Shown one piece after another: positions 2,998-10,995 of a stretch of 10,995 nt of DNA. The position numbers were made by a program, and so were the translations under genes. The number at the start of each line of letters is the position of its first letter. Position 1 is the first letter of the stretch. This DNA is from Gemmatimonadota bacterium (GTDB lineage: Bacteria; GCA-2686955). Under the pieces are notes generated by a model, which made no database searches, was not told the DNA's origin, and saw only the letters and a program-made list of their open reading frames with translations. The DNA lies in NCBI GenBank assembly GCA_002686955.1, contig NYZA01000077.1:1-10995 (forward strand). The letters run 5' to 3'.

Positions 2998-3419
2998 GGG
3001 GTTCCTTGTCTTCGGGGGGATGCGGTTCGGTTTGCCGTTCGGTTTCAGGCCCGAGTGTAGCCGATGAGGGGCCTCCGAGCGGAGCGCCCGTATCCGATCG
3101 GTGCCGGAGATCGCGGCCGGTCGTCCATGAGAGTGGACGCACGGACACGCGCGGCGCTGCGATCGCCTCCGCCTCGGATCATCTGTGTGGAGGCGGTAAC
3201 ACGCGATGCTTCAACGAGTTTCCGCCCGCCATGATCGACCGCTTGCCCAACGATTGCGCACTACCGGACCCGGGCACCCTCTTTGCGCTTTGTTCGGCGC
3301 AAGTATTCAGGACTCGGTGACGGACAACAGGAGACTTGCGATGTTCCACACAGCACTGCATCTCGGCCGCTTGATCGGCACGCTGCCGGCGAGCACCACC
3401 TCCTGAACCCGTCCGCGGG
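2998..3419. other. Region of about 420 bases without a convincing gene
   Basis: It separates the start of the leftward operon from the MITE-like element. The operon's promoter should lie in roughly 3000-3100, but I see no clear -35/-10 pair there. The only structures noted are a 6-bp hairpin (TTGCGC at 3283-3288 with GCGCAA at 3297-3302) and a very short ORF with a good ribosome-binding site at 3341. Confidence 0.5.
3341..3406 (+). CDS. Possible 21-codon small ORF with a good ribosome-binding site
   Basis: ATG at 3341 is preceded by AGGAG (3329-3333) with a 7-nt spacer, an unusually good Shine-Dalgarno for an otherwise empty region. The product reads MFHTALHLGRLIGTLPASTTS and ends 13 nt before the target duplication of the neighbouring foldback element. 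No homologue is recognised. It could be a real small protein, the remnant of a gene shortened by rearrangement, or chance. No clear sigma70 promoter was seen upstream. Confidence 0.2.
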   Translation: MFHTALHLGRLIGTLPASTTS

Positions 3420-3423
3420 CTAG
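3420..3423. repeat. CTAG target-site duplication, left copy
   Basis: CTAG immediately outside the left inverted repeat of the foldback element; its partner is at 3600-3603. Confidence 0.6.
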
Positions 3424-3599
3424 CCCGGATATCTCACCAACTTTCTGCTGTGGCGACGCATCTCCGCACCCTGGCAGCACTTCCCCCCGTTTCGCTTTGT
3501 GCGACGTGCAACCAGCACGCCTCCGCGCGAAACGGTGCGAAACACCGCCAGGCCACGAATCTGCGCTGCCTCGCGACGAAAGTTGGTGAGAGATCCGGG
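3424..3599. mobile_element. MITE-like foldback element, 176 bp, with 22-bp terminal inverted repeats and CTAG target duplication
   Basis: The left end reads CCCGGATATCTCACCAAC and continues to 3445. The right end (3578-3599) is its reverse complement with one mismatch, 21 of 22 bp. Both sides are flanked by CTAG (3420-3423 and 3600-3603), a 4-bp target duplication. Further complementary blocks lie inside: CCTGGC 3470-3475 with GCCAGG 3547-3552, and CCGTTTCGC 3487-3495 with GCGAAACGG 3527-3535. Almost the whole element can therefore fold into one long imperfect hairpin. It has no coding capacity. CC...GG ends with a 4-bp duplication fit IS1380-type elements (established family pattern), so it may be moved in trans by such a transposase; that assignment is inference. 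Confidence 0.75.
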
Positions 3600-3603
3600 C
3601 TAG
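3600..3603. repeat. CTAG target-site duplication, right copy (contains the MFS gene stop codon)
   Basis: CTAG immediately outside the right inverted repeat. On the minus strand its TAG (3602-3600) is the stop codon of the MFS transporter remnant, so the element entered exactly at a stop codon and left the protein end unchanged. Confidence 0.6.
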
Positions 3604-4247
3604 CCACGCCCCTCCCGCCCCCAAAGCCGCCGCCCCGCGACAGTCCACAAAGCCGCCGGAACGAGCAACGATCCGGTCACCGCGCCGGCCAAGAGACGCA
3701 GATCGATTCCAAGAGCGGCCAGTTCGCCGTAGATCCAGGTACTCGTGGCGATCATGAGTGTCACCATCGCCATATCGGCGGCGAAAACGCGCCCTCGGAA
3801 TTCGTCGGGAACCATGCGCTGCAAGAGCACGGTCGAATCGACCCAGACGATGCTTCCTCCGAAGTGCGCGATGACGACACAAATGAACGTCAGGGCGGGG
3901 TGATGAACGATGGCGAAGAGGGCGTACCAGAGGGCTCCCCAAACGAAGGCGATGCCTAGCAACGGACGCATTCGTGAAGAGAGCTCGCCGGTGATGCGGC
4001 GCGAGAGCAGCGGGCCGATGCCGGTCCCGAGGGCGCGCGCCACATAGAGGAGGCTGATTCCCAGGTCCGGTCGACCGCCGATCGCGTAGATGCGCTCTCC
4101 GGAGAGAGTGAGCAGGAGCGAGATCGCTCCGGCGAGTCCACAGCCGCTCTTGAGCAGCATGACGGCCGCCACTTGGCGATGCGCCGCGAGGTAGCGTGCG
4201 CCCTCGGCGAGGTCGCGGGCGCCCGTAACGCTCCCCAAATCACCAGT
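3600..4247 (-). pseudogene. MFS transporter, C-terminal part (TM7-12), separated from its N-terminus by an insertion
   Basis: The readable part starts near GDLGSVTGARDLAEGARYL and runs about 212 residues to GRREWGREGRG-like basic tail (actual end RRLWGREGRG) and TAG. Hydrophobic segments match TM7 (VAAVMLLKSGCGLAGAISLL), TM8 (ISLLYVARALGTGIGPLL), TM9, TM10 (FICVVIAHFGGSIVW), TM11 and TM12 of an exporter of about 420 residues (MFS_3/enterobactin-exporter-like). The motif LQRMVPDEFRGRVFA is the typical inter-domain loop of this family. No ATG or ribosome-binding site starts this part; a TGA lies upstream near 4262. The matching N-terminal part is at 5829-6281 on the same strand. The left boundary of the homologous part is uncertain by about 20 nt. 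Confidence 0.8.
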
Positions 4248-4519: not shown

Positions 4520-5743
4520 ATGTACATCCAGAGAACCATGGAAGCCCACTTCCGTCGAGCATCGGAGCAGTTTCCAGTGCTCCTGGTCACCGGTGCGCGT
4601 CAGGTGGGTAAGACGACATTCCTGCGTCATCTCAGCGACGCCGACAGAACCTACATAAGTCTCGACGATCCCCGGATCCTCGAGCTGGCGCGTAGCGACC
4701 CAGCCATGTTCATGCAACGCTTTCCGGGGCCGGTGCTCATCGACGAGATCCAATACGCTCCGGGCCTGCTGCCTTTTATCAAGATGGCCGCCGATCGTGA
4801 CGGCGAGGCGGGGCGCTTCTGGCTCACAGGCTCCCAGCAGTTCCACCTCATGCGCGAGGTTTCCGAGTCGCTGGCCGGTCGTGTGGGGATCGCCAACCTT
4901 CTGGGACTGTCTCGTAGGGAGCTCGACGGGACGGATGCCAACGGTGCACCCTTCCTGCCGACGAGCGACATCGTGACCGCAAGGCTTGTGGACGAGACCG
5001 ATCTGTCGCTACCTCGACTCTATGAGCGGATCTGGCGTGGGTCATACCCGGCAATCGCGTCGAACGCGAGCGTCGACCGAGATCTCTACTTCAGCTCCTA
5101 TGTGCAAACATATCTTCAGCGCGACGTTCGCGACCTTGCGCGAGTCGGCGACGAGCTGGCCTTCCTTCGCTTCGTGCGCGCCTGCGCGGCGCGCACGGCT
5201 CAACTCCTCAACCTCGCCGACCTTGCGCGCGACGTCGGCATCGTGGCGAACACGGCCAAGAGCTGGCTCTCGATCCTCGAGTCCTCGAACATCATCCCCC
5301 TGCTCGAGCCGTACCACTCGAATGTCACCAAACGCCTTATCAAGTCACCGAAGCTCTACTTCCTCGATACCGGCCTTTGTGCGTGGCTGACGGAGTGGAC
5401 GACGCCGAAGACACTCGAGGCGGGTGCCGCGTCCGGAGCGATGCTGGAGACCTGGATTCTCGGCGAGATTCTGAAATCCTGGTGGCACCGAGGCAGGCGA
5501 GCTCCATTCTACTTCTATCGAGACAAAGACCAGAAAGAGATCGATCTACTGATCAAACAAGACGATGTGGTCTACCCCTTGGAGTTCAAGAAGAGCGCCT
5601 CTCCCGGGCGGAAATCGCTCATGCATTTTCGAAAGCTCGAAGGGCTCGGTCTGAAGGTAGGTTCGGGTGGCGTCGTCTGTTTGGCGGAGTCATCGTTGCC
5701 CCTCGAGGGCGACTTGGCCTCGATACCGATCCGCGCGCTTTGA
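4520..5743 (+). CDS. AAA_14 / DUF4143 family ATPase
   Basis: 407 residues. The start ATG 4520 is chosen because MYIQRTMEAHF matches the usual family N-terminus and AGAGGA lies 7 nt upstream; longer frames begin inside the promoter. The N-terminal P-loop ATPase has Walker A GARQVGKT (25-32), Walker B VLIDE (72-76) and sensor-like FWLTGSQQF (100-108). A winged-helix region follows (LARVGDELAFLRFVRACA, ARDVGIVANTAKSWLSILE). The C-terminal DUF4143 part ends with FYFYRDKDQKEIDLLI and PLEFKKS. Asp342, Glu355 and Lys357 resemble a PD-(D/E)xK nuclease-type triad, though many family members are not shown to cut DNA. The family is widespread, patchily distributed and functionally unresolved; roles in defence or toxin-like activity are speculation. 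The gene looks intact and is the only gene in the segment that interrupts the MFS transporter. Confidence 0.93.
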   Translation: MYIQRTMEAHFRRASEQFPVLLVTGARQVGKTTFLRHLSDADRTYISLDDPRILELARSDPAMFMQRFPGPVLIDEIQYAPGLLPFIKMAADRDGEAGRFWLTGSQQFHLMREVSESLAGRVGIANLLGLSRRELDGTDANGAPFLPTSDIVTARLVDETDLSLPRLYERIWRGSYPAIASNASVDRDLYFSSYVQTYLQRDVRDLARVGDELAFLRFVRACAARTAQLLNLADLARDVGIVANTAKSWLSILESSNIIPLLEPYHSNVTKRLIKSPKLYFLDTGLCAWLTEWTTPKTLEAGAASGAMLETWILGEILKSWWHRGRRAPFYFYRDKDQKEIDLLIKQDDVVYPLEFKKSASPGRKSLMHFRKLEGLGLKVGSGGVVCLAESSLPLEGDLASIPIRAL

Positions 5744-5828
5744 GGGGGGCATGGCTGACAACACTCGCCGATCGGCCGATTGTGGCGCAGATGGGATGCC
5801 ACATGACAAGTCATTCTTCGCGAACCCT

Positions 5829-6281
5829 AAGGGCGTTGGCCGCGGCGAGCGCCCTCGGCGAGACCAGGTTGGGCAGGGTGGCTTGGCGGGCCGGCTCGGC
5901 GAAGGCGGCGGTGGCCATCTGCAGGAAGGTCAGGGTGAAGACGATAGGGGTGGCGTGCGTGGGGAAGAGCGGGGCGGCGAAGAGGGCGGAGACGAGGAGG
6001 AAGCGGAGGAGGTCGGCGACGATCATGATCCGCTTTCGGTCGAAGCGGTCGGCGACCACTCCGGCCGCGGGGCCGGCGACGAAGGCGGGCAGGAGCTTGA
6101 TGATGAAGACGCCGCCTACGACTCGCGGGTCGGAGCCGGTGACCTCGCGGAGCAGGGCGAGGATGCCTAGCAGATTGAACCAATCGCCGAGCAGGCTGGT
6201 GGTGCGCGCGAGGAAGAGGCGGCGGAATCCGGCGTGCACGCGCAGCACTTCCAGGTAGCCGATTCGATGGCTTCGGGGCAT
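5829..6281 (-). pseudogene. MFS transporter, N-terminal part (TM1-4), interrupted
   Basis: ATG at 6281 begins MPRSHRIGYLEVLRVHAGF. It contains TM1 (LFLARTTSLLGDWFNLLGIL), TM2 with MFS motif A GVVADRFDRKR, TM3 and TM4, and the conserved ARQATLPNLVSPRALAAANAL. After AANAL the family expects about 60-70 residues covering TM5-6. Here the frame runs into foreign RVREE and a TGA (5813-5811). The rest of the gene resumes at about 4247. The combined remnants (about 150 + 212 residues) fall short of the usual 420 or so by the missing TM5-6. The start lies 53 nt from the divergent DUF2868 gene. Confidence 0.85.
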
Positions 6282-6333
6282 TCACGGGGGTCCGGTGTGG
6301 CGGGGGAGCGGGGGGCGCGGTAGATTCCCGTGC

Positions 6334-7890
6334 ATGATTGGACCGACCGCGACAGAGATCGAGGGCGAGAGTAGCGCTCAGGGGCGGGGGGCGCGGCGGC
6401 GATCGGCGCTGAGTCTGGGGGAGATCTTCGCCTTGGAGCGGCAGCATTTGCGCGATCGTGGACGGAGCGATTCGGAGCTGCGCAGACGAGATCGCGAGAT
6501 CGGGCGGGCGCTTTCGAGGATCGGAGGGGAGGGGAGCGGGAACCGGCGCGTGCTCTATCGGGGCTGGCTGAGGAGCCTGGGGGGCGAGGCGGCGCGCGAT
6601 GCGGCGCGCATGGAGAAGGCGGTGGCGGCGGCGGCGATGGGACTGGTCTTGGCCGGCGCGATCTCCGGCGGTGGGACGGCCTTGGGGCTCCTGCGCTACG
6701 ACGGATCGACTCCGATCAATCTGCTGCATTTCGTGGGGGTGTTCGTCGTTCTTCAGGTGCTGCTGCTGGTGGCCTGGATCGTTGCGTTGGCGGCGTGGCG
6801 AGGGGGATGGCGAGCGCCGGGGGCGGTGACGACGGTGGTGGGGGGCACGGTGCATTGGGTGTTGCGCCGGGGCTTCGAGGGGGAGCGGCGCGATGCACTG
6901 CGTGCCGATCTCGAGTGGTTGCGAAGTGTCGGGGGCTGGTACTCAGCGGTCGAGCGATGGTCGGTGGCGCGCTTGGGGCAGATATTCGGTGTCTCTTTCA
7001 ACGTCGGCGCGCTGGCGGTGGCGGCGCTCTTGATGGCGACCTCCGATCTCGCCTTCGCGTGGCGCAGCACGATCGATTGGCGCCCGGAGCAGATTCATGG
7101 GTTGCTGGCGGCGATCTCGGTTCCTTGGGGATCGGCGTTGCCCGCGGCGGTGCCAAGCCTGGAGCTCGTCGAGGCGAGCCGGCATTTCCGGGGGACCGGC
7201 GCACCCGCGCTTTCGCCCGAGCTGATGGCCCGGTGGTGGTCCTTTCTGATTCTGGCGCTGCTCTGCTACGGGCTCGTGCCGCGAGCGCTCACCTGGTGGT
7301 TCTCGGAGCTCGGGCTGCGACGGGCGCTGCGCTGGATCGATCTCGATCGGGGGGACTTCGCCGATCTGCACGATCGTCTGACGCTGCCTCTCGTCGAGAC
7401 CCCGGGCACCGATCCGAATGGTGATCCTTCCGGCAGGGAGGGCTTGGCGACCGACCGGAAGCCGATCGATGAGGGGCGCGCGTGGGCGATCGTCTGGCGC
7501 GACGCGCCGATCGACGAAGCGCGGGTCGAGGCGATCGCCGGAGAGCGCCTTCGATGGGGAATCGAGAAGGTCCTGGCGGCGGGTGGAGGGACCGATGCGA
7601 ATGTAGACGGGGAAGCGCTGGGAGCGCTCGATTCGATCCCGAAAACTATGTCGTTGCTGCTTCTGGCCGAATCGTTCGATCCGCCGACGAAAGAGCTGCA
7701 CAAGTTTCTTTGCGACGCGGCCGAAAGGCTCGGCCCTTCGCGCGATCTCGTGGTTTGTTTGGTCGAGCTCCGTGACGATGGCGCCTGGTCGCCGGCCGAG
7801 GATTCACAAATCGCGATTTGGCGGCGAGCATTGGCGACACTTCGACTCCCGCGCCTTCGCGTGGTGACGCGACTCGATGGGAAAAGATGA
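6334..7890 (+). CDS. DUF2868 family membrane protein
   Basis: 518 residues from ATG 6334; an in-frame GTG at 6295 would add 13 residues and cannot be excluded, since neither has a strong ribosome-binding site. The N-terminus (about 1-92) is charged and helical: LGEIFALERQHLRDRGRSD, RRRDREIGRALSRIG. Four membrane segments follow at about 96-119, 130-155, 217-243 and 301-323. A soluble C-terminal domain (about 340-518) has AWAIVWRDAPIDEARVEAI and DLVVCLVELRDDGAWSP. The arrangement and the coupled downstream GTPase match the DUF2868-DUF3482 pairs known from proteobacteria. Its TGA overlaps the ATG of the GTPase gene (ATGA). Function is unknown; a membrane anchor or regulator of the GTPase is an inference from the conserved pairing. 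Confidence 0.8.
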   Translation: MIGPTATEIEGESSAQGRGARRRSALSLGEIFALERQHLRDRGRSDSELRRRDREIGRALSRIGGEGSGNRRVLYRGWLRSLGGEAARDAARMEKAVAAAAMGLVLAGAISGGGTALGLLRYDGSTPINLLHFVGVFVVLQVLLLVAWIVALAAWRGGWRAPGAVTTVVGGTVHWVLRRGFEGERRDALRADLEWLRSVGGWYSAVERWSVARLGQIFGVSFNVGALAVAALLMATSDLAFAWRSTIDWRPEQIHGLLAAISVPWGSALPAAVPSLELVEASRHFRGTGAPALSPELMARWWSFLILALLCYGLVPRALTWWFSELGLRRALRWIDLDRGDFADLHDRLTLPLVETPGTDPNGDPSGREGLATDRKPIDEGRAWAIVWRDAPIDEARVEAIAGERLRWGIEKVLAAGGGTDANVDGEALGALDSIPKTMSLLLLAESFDPPTKELHKFLCDAAERLGPSRDLVVCLVELRDDGAWSPAEDSQIAIWRRALATLRLPRLRVVTRLDGKR

Positions 7891-9290
7891 GTCCACCGAT
7901 CCACTTCGCCGTCGTGGCCGCCGTGAACCGAGGCAAGTCTAGTATTGTATCGACCTTGGCCGAAAACGACTCGATTCGGATTTCTCCGAGCCCAGGCACC
8001 ACGCGTGAAGCTCGCTCCTACCCGGTCGTCGTAGATGACGAGACACTTTTCGTATTGACCGATACACCGGGATTCGAGCGCGCCCGCGAGCTACTCGCCT
8101 GGATCGAGCGGGAGCGAGGCCCGGAGGGCTCACCCGGGAGCGTCCTGGAGCGCTTTGTGCGGGAGCACCGCGATGACTCGGGTTTTCGCGCCGAGTGTGA
8201 GCTCTTGGCGCCGATTCTGGGGGGCGCGGCGGTCCTCTATGTGGTCGACGGAGCGGTTCCCTTTCGCGACCACATGCGCGCCGAAATGGAGATCTTGCGC
8301 TGGGCGGCGCCGCTTCGTGTCGCGCTGATCAATCGCCGAGGGGAGCATCTGGAGGGCTGGAAGGGAGAGCTGCGGGCGCATTTTCAGATGGTGCGGGAGT
8401 TCGACGCGCAGCGCGTGGGCTTTGGGGAGCGGATCGGATTGCTGCGGGGCTTGAGGGAGGTGAACGAGGGGCATTGGAGGGAGGGGCTCCAGCGGATCGT
8501 CGAAGCGCTGGAGCTGGACTGGAAGCGGCGCAGGCGTCGTTCCGCTCGAATCATCGCCGATCTGGTGGCGAAATCGATCGTGCACGGATTGCGGGTGCCG
8601 ATCCCTTCCGGGGACGATCCGGAGGATCACCAGGCCAGGCTGACTAAGCGCTTCCACGACGACCTCAGAAAGCTCGAGGAGAAAGCGCGCGTCGAGATCG
8701 AGGCGCTGTACAAGCATGCACGCTTGGAGCATGCCGAGGCGGCCGATCGCCCGGTCTGGGAGGAGGATCTCTTCGATCCGGCCCGCTGGGAGCCGCTGGG
8801 ACTGGCGCCGCGTCAGCTCCTGGCCCTGGGTGCGACCCTGGGCGCGGTGACGGGAGGCGCGGTCGATGTGGCGGTGGGGGGAGCCTCGTTCATGCTGGGC
8901 GCGGTGCTCGGCGCGGCGATGGGAGCGGGGGGGGCGCTCTGGCGCTCCGGACAGCCGATCGCTTCGGTCGAGGGGCTGAGGGGGTTGGTTCGGGGGGATC
9001 GCCTGCTGCGCATCGGACCCCACCCGAATCCGAACTTCCCCTTCGTTCTGCTAGACGCCAATCTGCTCCACTGGACCGCGATCCGCGAGCGCGCTCACGC
9101 CGAACGGAGCACATTGGTCTTGGAGAGGGCCGGCGAGAAGGAGGGGCCGAGCTCCGCTCTTGGCGCCGGGGAGCGGAAAGCGCTCTCGAAGTGCTTCGCG
9201 GGGGTCCGAAAGCGGGCACCTCGTGTGGATCCGAGCGCCCGTGACCTGCTCGCGGAGAAGGTCGAAGGGCTGATGGGGCGGTTGGAGTGA
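7887..9290 (+). CDS. Era-like GTPase with DUF3482 C-terminal region
   Basis: 467 residues from ATG 7887, whose ATGA overlap with the preceding stop fixes the start. The GTPase domain (1 to about 210) has a P-loop AAVNRGKS (11-18), PGTT (36-39, switch I/G2) and DTPGF (59-63, G3). G4 is NRRG (149-152) instead of NKxD, and the first P-loop glycine is alanine. A long helical region (about 210-290: AIIADL-type and KRFHDDLRKLEEKARVEIEA) leads to a glycine-zipper hydrophobic stretch (311-352, LGATLGAVTGGAV, LGAVLGAAMGAGGALW), likely to insert in or lie on the membrane. A C-terminal domain follows. This organisation is that of DUF3482 proteins, which pair with DUF2868. GTP binding is likely but specificity is uncertain with the altered G4. 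Biological role unknown. Confidence 0.85.
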   Translation: MSPPIHFAVVAAVNRGKSSIVSTLAENDSIRISPSPGTTREARSYPVVVDDETLFVLTDTPGFERARELLAWIERERGPEGSPGSVLERFVREHRDDSGFRAECELLAPILGGAAVLYVVDGAVPFRDHMRAEMEILRWAAPLRVALINRRGEHLEGWKGELRAHFQMVREFDAQRVGFGERIGLLRGLREVNEGHWREGLQRIVEALELDWKRRRRRSARIIADLVAKSIVHGLRVPIPSGDDPEDHQARLTKRFHDDLRKLEEKARVEIEALYKHARLEHAEAADRPVWEEDLFDPARWEPLGLAPRQLLALGATLGAVTGGAVDVAVGGASFMLGAVLGAAMGAGGALWRSGQPIASVEGLRGLVRGDRLLRIGPHPNPNFPFVLLDANLLHWTAIRERAHAERSTLVLERAGEKEGPSSALGAGERKALSKCFAGVRKRAPRVDPSARDLLAEKVEGLMGRLE

Positions 9291-9408: not shown

Positions 9409-10434
9409 TCATGGGTTGTTATTTAGTGCCGATGTCACTCGCTCGCGGGCAAGATGTCGGCGTGGTGGGTTGATCCAGACTTCGGTGGGCAGTGAGCCCG
9501 GTGAGGGGGGTCGTCGGACAAAGCGTTCTGGGTGCCGATCGTATGCGGCTCCGAGGACTGCGCGGCGACGTTCCAGCACGTCTTTGCCTCGACCGTAGTG
9601 GACTGCCTCCGGCGTGAGCATTGCGATGCCAGCATGGCGGTGTTCGGTGTTGTACCAGCGAAAGAGCGAGCGACAGAAAGCGGTGGCATCCTCGATGACG
9701 CCGAAACGGCCGGGGAAGCTGGGGTGGTACTTCAGGGTCTTGAACTGGGCCTCGGAGAATGGGTTGTCGTCCGAGACATGCGGTCGGCTGAGTGAGCGGT
9801 TGACGCCGAGATCGGCCAGCAGTTGGGCCGTGGTCTTGGCGGTCATCGGTACACCGCGGTCGCTGTGCAGGCTCAAGTCCGTATCGGTGGCGCCTTGCTT
9901 TTCGCAGGTCTGGGCGATCAGACGCCGCGCGTGTGCAGCATTCTCACGCTCAGCGACCATCCAGCCCACCACGTAGCGGCTGAAGATATCGATGATGACG
10001 TAGAGGTAGAACCACGACCATTTGACCGGGCCGCGCAGCTTGGTGATGTCCCATGACCAGACTTGATTGGGGCCGGTAGCGAGCAGCTCCGGCTTCTGGT
10101 AGACAGGGTGGCGCAGCTGATTGCGCCTCTCGCGCACCTCCTTGTTCGCTTCCAGAATGCGATACATGGTTCGCTCAGAGCACACGTAGCGCCCCTCGTC
10201 GAGCAAAGTCGCTACAACCTCGGCTGGTGCCCTATCCACGTAGCGCTCAGAGTGGAGGATATCGAGGACGCATTGACGCTCGCCCGCGCTGAGTGCTCGC
10301 GACGGGACGGGACGTGGGGCCGCAGGCTCCTTCGGTCGCGGACGGTGGTGGCGATACCAGCTGGCCCTCGAAACTCCCAGTGCCTCGCAGGCAGAGACAA
10401 CACCAACGGAGTCGGCGAGGTCAGCGGCGACCAT
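9409..10434 (-). CDS. IS3-family transposase, orfB (rve integrase core)
   Basis: 341 residues. The N-terminal part is the HTH_21-like region (SACEALGVSRASWYRH, RTMYRILEANKEV). The catalytic core has Asp129 (VWSWDITKL), Asp192 (LHSDRGVPM) and Glu228 with Lys235 (NPFSEAQFKTLKY), giving the D-D(35)E-x6-K signature. The DDE core appears intact. Its ATG shares one base with the orfA stop (TGATG), so it can be made by reinitiation; it lies in the -1 frame relative to orfA, open back to an A8 run, so a fused OrfAB transposase by frameshifting is also possible. It cuts and joins the IS ends; with only one copy in view, present activity is unknown. Confidence 0.95.
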   Translation of the reverse strand: MVAADLADSVGVVSACEALGVSRASWYRHHRPRPKEPAAPRPVPSRALSAGERQCVLDILHSERYVDRAPAEVVATLLDEGRYVCSERTMYRILEANKEVRERRNQLRHPVYQKPELLATGPNQVWSWDITKLRGPVKWSWFYLYVIIDIFSRYVVGWMVAERENAAHARRLIAQTCEKQGATDTDLSLHSDRGVPMTAKTTAQLLADLGVNRSLSRPHVSDDNPFSEAQFKTLKYHPSFPGRFGVIEDATAFCRSLFRWYNTEHRHAGIAMLTPEAVHYGRGKDVLERRRAVLGAAYDRHPERFVRRPPSPGSLPTEVWINPPRRHLARERVTSALNNNP

Positions 10435-10949
10435 CAGTCGTTCCTTCCGCTCTCGCCCTGGCTCGAGAGGCTGATCCCGAGAAGAGTGGAGAGTTTTTTT
10501 TGGACGTCGATGACTGTCTCCGCCTTGCGAAGTTGCTCGCGCAATCGCTCGTTCTCCCGTCGCAGGCGCTGGTTCTCGCGGACGACGAAGTTCTCGGGCT
10601 TGGCCTTGCGTCCACGCTTCTTCGGAGCCAATCCCGCCGACTCACCGCTGGATCGCTGCCGGCGCCAACTCGACAGAAGTGAGGAGTAGAGCCCCTCACG
10701 CCGAAGCAACGCACCAATCTCGCCCGGCTCACTGCATCCATCCGCCAGACGCAGGATGCGCAGCTTGTAGCTGGCCGTAAACCGGCGGCGGCGCGCTTTC
10801 GGAGGAACCTCTGGATCAGGCCCAAGACTTCCAGGAGAAGGATTGGCCGTCATGGCGCCCTCTCCGGCCCCTTCGGGCTCGCTACGCTCCCCCTCCGGTG
10901 CCTCCGCGGGCGCCATGACGGCCAGGGGTGCGGACATCGTTGCGGTCAT
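10434..10949 (-). CDS. IS3-family transposase, orfA (DNA-binding HTH and leucine zipper)
   Basis: 171 residues from ATG 10949, preceded by GAGAGAGAAG about 6 nt away. An alternative start at 10853 (MTANPSP, with GGAGAGG 5 nt upstream) gives 139 residues, and a TTG at 10970 is possible. The HTH_Tnp_1-type domain reads RRFTASYKLRILRLAD and GALLRREGLYSSLLSSWRR. A basic linker KKRGRKAKPE follows, then a leucine-zipper helix RENQRLRRENERLREQL and VIDVQKKLSTLLGI. This is the ends-binding and dimerising part of an IS3 transposase. The extended N-terminus (APEGERSEPEGAGEGA) is low-complexity and coincides with an inverted repeat in the DNA. Confidence 0.9.
   Translation of the reverse strand: MTATMSAPLAVMAPAEAPEGERSEPEGAGEGAMTANPSPGSLGPDPEVPPKARRRRFTASYKLRILRLADGCSEPGEIGALLRREGLYSSLLSSWRRQRSSGESAGLAPKKRGRKAKPENFVVRENQRLRRENERLREQLRKAETVIDVQKKLSTLLGISLSSQGESGRND
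10450..10469 (-). promoter_or_regulatory. Stem-loop downstream of the slippery run
   Basis: CTCTCG (10450-10455) pairs with CGAGAG (10464-10469) around an 8-nt loop. On the transcript it begins about 24 nt after the A8 run, a position that could stimulate frameshifting. It is a short stem, so the role is tentative. Confidence 0.4.
10494..10501 (-). promoter_or_regulatory. Candidate -1 ribosomal frameshift site (A8 run) in orfA
   Basis: On the coding strand the orfA codons read CAA AAA AAA CTC, which contains the slippery heptamer A AAA AAA. The -1 frame from here is open through to orfB with no stop. A-rich slippery sites of this type make OrfAB in many IS3 elements. Confidence 0.6.
10845..10923. 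repeat. Perfect 16-bp inverted repeat (47-nt loop) covering an orfA start codon
   Basis: GGCCGTCATGGCGCCC (10845-10860) and its exact reverse complement GGGCGCCATGACGGCC (10908-10923). On the orfA transcript the second arm contains the ATG at 10853 and the end of its spacer; the first arm is transcribed about 50 nt earlier. The loop contains a smaller GCCC/GGGC hairpin. Confidence 0.75.
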
Positions 10950-10995
10950 GCTCTGCTTCTCTCTCGACAAGGTGCGTCACCTCTCGCCCTTCTAC

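Follow-up and report, generated by a model that had tools for sequence, protein, structure and literature searches.

A foldback sequence lies directly against the stop codon of a transporter gene in a Gemmatimonadota contig, which raises the question of whether it is a mobile element, which enzyme could have moved it, and why it sits exactly at a stop. The window analyzed here is one whole contig (C77; 10,995 nt) of a 4.28-Mb, 270-contig assembly that is 84.5% complete. The initial annotation described a foldback element with inverted repeats, a CTAG duplication and a paired interior, and the first two of these were confirmed by direct reading: a foldback element of 176 bp occupies window 3424-3599, with inverted repeats of 22 bp (21/22 positions matching) and CTAG duplicated on either side. 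The features of the locus are as follows.

3420-3423, no strand: left target-site duplication CTAG (family consensus YTAR), from direct reading
3424-3599, plus strand: foldback MITE, non-coding, 176 bp, based on own-genome copies, folding, and hairpin covariation over 48 elements
3424-3445, plus strand: left terminal inverted repeat CCCGGATATCTCACCAACTTTC, with its outer 15 bp common to the IS1380 element L141
3446-3453, plus strand: left subterminal box TGCTGTGG (CTGCTGCGG-type), conserved between genomes (alignment A1)
3505-3519, plus strand: apical stem CGTGC...GCACG, the best conserved interior helix (helix 9 of the covariation analysis, 98.8% of cells paired)
3569-3577, minus strand: right subterminal box GTCGCGAGG, conserved between genomes (alignment A1)
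3578-3599, minus strand: right terminal inverted repeat CCCGGATCTCTCACCAACTTTC, from arm comparison
3600-3603, no strand: right target-site duplication CTAG, whose minus-strand TAG is the stop of the MFS fragment (direct reading and stop-frame coding score)
3600-4238, minus strand: C-terminal portion of a broken MFS transporter gene, with its end in the right duplication (MFS_1, E 5.1e-4, below the Pfam cut-off)
4523-5743, plus strand: AAA_14/DUF4143 ATPase gene between the two MFS parts, on the opposite strand (domain match)
5811-6281, minus strand: N-terminal MFS part (domain match)

With the CTAG and two chance bases added, the arms extend over 3418-3445 and 3578-3605 and are 96% complementary. 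The end motif occurs in only two places in the window, both of them element ends (0.05 expected).

Copies, target sites and distribution

The features by which bacterial MITEs are recognized, namely a size below 500 bp without a transposase gene (here 176 bp), terminal inverted repeats (21/22 bp), a target-site duplication and many copies per genome, are all present. As the initial annotation had anticipated, the host genome contains further copies: blastn recovered at least 40 copies or part-copies, and at least 77 matches when self-complementary ones are counted. Pattern searches identified at least 72 ends at up to 3 mismatches and at least 91 sites combining YTAR with the end at up to 1 mismatch, against 0 for a reversed-pattern control. 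Many of the own-genome copies are located at contig ends.

The flanks of the copies are mostly CTAG, CTAA or TTAG. Identical 4-bp flanks border 10 of the 13 full-length own copies, CTAA/CTAA included, and one 56-bp version is bordered by TTAG/TTAG. Because the CTAA/CTAA and TTAG/TTAG pairs are direct and non-palindromic, the four bases represent a target duplication (consensus YTAR) and not an extension of the inverted repeat. Twelve of these 13 copies differ from their consensus by 3-19%; the family is therefore not brand new. Versions of 54-56 bp, with little beyond the two ends back to back, were also detected, two of them 56-bp deletion versions in the own genome (L041 1467-1522; L048 1501-1556) and one in a Fermentibacteria MAG (L068 2483-2536).

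The genome contains another repeat family, whose inverted ends are CTAGGARCCTGTTGCGCATAG ... CTATGCGCAACAGGCTCCTAG; it was observed at about 1300-1500 of locus L005 and also in L004, L012, L022, L041 and L201. Several MITE copies are placed at the terminal CTAG of this repeat, and the same CTAG is free of the MITE in L004 and at one end in L201.

Beyond the host, the exact 26-base pattern (target plus end) was found in MAGs labelled Fermentibacteria, Holophagae/Acidobacteriota, Gammaproteobacteria and Actinomycetes. It is present in 29 of 396 genomes sampled from the same phylum as the Holophagae MAG G103, and in 9 of 336 genomes taken as relatives (own genome counted; nearly all from elsewhere in the domain). 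Copy numbers can be considerable, with 243 ends at up to 1 mismatch in G098 (Fermentibacteria label) and 115 in the 1.9-Mb G100 (Acidobacteriota label), the control giving 0 in both. The phyla are named after MAG labels, and isolated occurrences may reflect misbinning; since copy numbers are high, such errors are unlikely as a general explanation. Elements of 174-178 bp with about 60% identity between genomes stand under MAG labels of several phyla, and this conservation of length and fold across genomes is the unusual part of the finding. Plasmid and phage DNA yielded only weak, chance-level matches to the element, with the exception of the Nostoc IS1380 end described below.

Fold and covariation of the hairpin

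RNA folding bore out the paired interior of the element, with -97.5 kcal/mol for the plus strand (z -9.3) and -123.7 kcal/mol for the minus strand (z -11.5); no shuffle folded as well on either strand, and DNA folding parameters agree (z -7.0 and -8.3). Alignment A1 comprises 48 elements of 174-178 bp from nine genomes, aligned end to end, and reveals conserved subterminal boxes (CTGCTGCGG, GTCGCGAGG) and a conserved apical stem in main groups that are often about 60% identical. Both sides had changed in 26 of 40 pairs, the covariation score being 0.354 versus 0.146 in a shuffle test that ignores relatedness. In the A1 structure 93.3% of cells were paired versus 28.7-49.0% when slid, a control that retains relatedness but is biased towards a structure obtained from the alignment being tested. 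No Rfam match to the element was obtained at the gathering threshold.

The two strands are not equivalent: in 47 of 48 elements, the GTCGCGAGG-first strand is the more stable one by about 20 kcal/mol. In a strand-neutral count, A.C mispairs outnumber G.T mispairs in 34 of 48 elements, but the signal is clear for the own lineage only. For this reason, and because related elements are not independent, the asymmetry should not be read as proof of an RNA function.

These observations bear on whether the element is primarily a selected RNA or single-stranded DNA structure, a mobile RNA hairpin for which the IS1380 ends described below are just the means of spread. The covariation, the retention of 174-178 bp in most genomes sampled despite about 60% identity between groups, and the better-folding strand speak for this reading, whereas the insertions at stop codons, assigned by best-scoring frame, involve 15 left and 9 right ends, so the more stable strand shows no preference for the mRNA. 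The lineage-restricted mispair count also argues against this reading, and arm-to-arm correction can keep foldback arms alike without any function; overall, we consider it unlikely. An RNA-level role of the hairpin is possible. With low confidence, we suggest that one MITE lineage spread over several phyla has kept its length of ~176 bp, its asymmetric subterminal boxes and a covarying hairpin with a stabler GTCGCGAGG-first strand through selection on the folded RNA or single-stranded DNA itself, for instance because it serves an IS1380 transposase as a transposition signal or, as an RNA, makes post-stop insertions tolerable.

The candidate transposase partner

A search for an autonomous element with CCCGGATTTCTCACC ends, a check named in the initial annotation, was successful in another genome. 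Locus L141 (G174:C63), from a genome sampled from the phylum of an Acidobacteriota MAG, contains a 1,740-bp element arranged as CTAG, CCCGGATTTCTCACC ... GGTGAGAAATGCGGG, CTAG, and carries an intact 485-aa IS1380-family transposase (NF033539, E 1.9e-113). This element and the MITE have in common the outer ends CCCGSATWTCTCACC and the 4-bp CTAG duplication. Loci L144 and L102 encode an IS1380 transposase just inside CTAG plus the end, and L125 has two matching stretches in the same position. The MITE is like IS1380-family insertion sequences (NF033539, PF13701) in its ends and target duplication (L141, L102, L144, L125), a 4-bp duplication not being universal in IS1380. The IS1380 element NLP_RS31740 of the Nostoc plasmid pNLP1 has similar outer ends (CCCGGATTTCTCACCAACT) and a 5-bp duplication, TCCAG, in contrast to the 4 bp of the MITE. 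For IS1247, a 5-bp duplication and 16/13 ends are reported (PMC3281130).

The overlap between L141 and the MITE is confined to the outer ~15 bp. Unlike IS1380 elements, the MITE has no transposase gene, measures 176 bp versus 1,740 bp, and possesses its own subterminal boxes and foldback interior, which were not found at the L141 ends; as the subterminal boxes are not in common, the MITE did not arise simply by deletion from L141. No IS1380 transposase was found in the 84.5%-complete host assembly by family and protein search, nor was one detected in the other MITE-rich genomes (G098-G103). Multi-copy insertion sequences are often lost from fragmented MAG assemblies, and since the assemblies are of this kind, the absence is weak evidence.

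Could a different transposase family, such as IS701 or another of the IS4 group, have moved the MITE instead? YTAR duplications are an IS701 trait, and the own genome has one IS701-type gene (L055) and no IS1380 gene that could be found; yet the 3.5-kb locus of L055 contains none of these ends, and the autonomous element that does have both ends and the CTAG duplication (L141) is an IS1380 element. This alternative is highly improbable, and IS701 as a source on the strength of YTAR was rejected, given that L055 is without MITE ends.

The common ends and duplications point to mobilization in trans by IS1380, and, judged from sequence, the MITE very probably borrows an IS1380-type transposase. 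The IS1380-type mobilization suggested earlier is therefore one that we infer from the ends, the CTAG duplication and the transposase of elements in other genomes, with no such gene found in the host. We have high confidence that the sequence at window 3424-3599 represents a single copy of a non-coding, high-copy MITE moved by an IS1380 transposase in trans. The transposase would bind the MITE ends, excise the element and insert it at a YTAR tetranucleotide, much as eukaryotic piggyBac does with TTAA. The conserved foldback may bring the ends together, be read by the transposase or act as RNA, which is the speculative and weakest step of this scheme.

Stop codons, host genes and known systems

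The element had been placed exactly at the stop codon of an MFS gene. The TAG of the right CTAG does end the ORF at 3600-4238 on the minus strand; the MFS gene itself is not intact, its N- and C-terminal parts lying on either side of the AAA_14/DUF4143 gene, which looks as if it had entered and broken the transporter gene. No MFS homologue with which to find the empty site of the window copy was present in the single same-family genome examined.

Other features were recorded on the contig. A short second repeat (window 5764-5835) borders the DUF4143 gene insertion on one side and matches the own-genome loci L203 279-352, L186 673-728 and L209 317-383 at 82-88% identity. At 6295-9290 on the plus strand, a DUF2868 membrane protein gene adjoins a GTPase/DUF3482 gene, a conserved pair. 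Two overlapping ORFs occupy 9409-10970 on the minus strand and resemble a two-frame insertion sequence of the IS3 type; integrase core and HTH domains (rve, rve_3) are found in the larger one.

Location at a pre-existing stop turned out to recur within the family. Own-genome ORFs served to train a codon model, and with it 65 MITE ends, which are not fully independent because two ends may come from one copy, were scored against 154 other YTAR sites in the same loci. The target was the in-frame stop of a coding ORF at 12 of the 65 MITE ends versus 2 of the 154 background sites (Fisher p 1.1e-5), and a coding frame was interrupted at none of the MITE ends (0/65) versus 33/154 background sites (p 4.6e-6). 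In the stop cases the duplication is in frame, so YTAR was already the stop before insertion. The pattern fits purifying selection together with a target that contains TAG/TAA; a direct preference of the transposase for stops is conceivable. Under the IS1380-driven mechanism, insertion at a gene's own stop would recreate that stop and be harmless, as YTAR contains TAG/TAA stop codons; copies at stop codons would survive and insertions into reading frames would be lost, and the window copy would have entered at the stop of the MFS gene.

That the hairpin, very stable and directly following the stop codon, is a fixed transcription terminator or mRNA-stabilizing element of the MFS gene and not mobile can be dismissed as a sole explanation and is scarcely credible, given that dozens of copies occupy unrelated loci between matching direct duplications, that 56-bp deletion versions exist, and that neither a T-run after the hairpin nor a terminator-like site was found in window 3200-3900. 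An inserted copy may have a secondary RNA effect.

Several known systems resemble the element in part. The Chunjie MITE of Geobacter uraniireducens (178-235 bp, with terminal inverted repeats, duplications and dozens of mostly intergenic copies; PMC10969869) is similar in size and behaviour, as a review describes it. Correia/NEMIS and ERIC are high-copy bacterial MITEs that fold into hairpins, with ERIC copies found at gene 3' ends (PMC10969869); by description they are like the present element in copy number and hairpins, and they differ in their hosts and in their known RNase processing. The termini of GTAG REPs often supply the TAG stop of flanking ORFs (PMC3733652), but these are 20-40 bp palindromes linked to tyrosine (RAYT) transposases and have no target duplication of this kind. 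The piggyBac elements end in CCC and use 4-bp targets of the TTAA type, TTAG and CTAA variants included, and piggyBac trees have been rooted with IS1380 (PMC10813416). At the sequence level only, they are like the MITE in their CCC ends and TTAA-type 4-bp targets; unlike it, they are eukaryotic, autonomous and mostly strict for TTAA.

By the features tested, the element is a bacterial MITE using IS1380-type ends, a known kind of element belonging to a family for which we found no earlier description in the literature on IS1380 and MITEs (subscription papers mostly outside the search). IS1380 is not among the topics of a 2024 review on prokaryotic MITEs, which leaves it unmentioned, and no text linking IS1380, target site and CTAG was found in the literature searched.

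The stop-codon pattern shows how a genome can bear dozens of copies of such an element at low cost. Since length and fold are retained at about 60% identity, selection on the hairpin is open to testing. As YTAR targets and CCC ends parallel piggyBac, the bacterial pair of IS1380 and MITE could serve as a compact test system for TTAA-type transposition.
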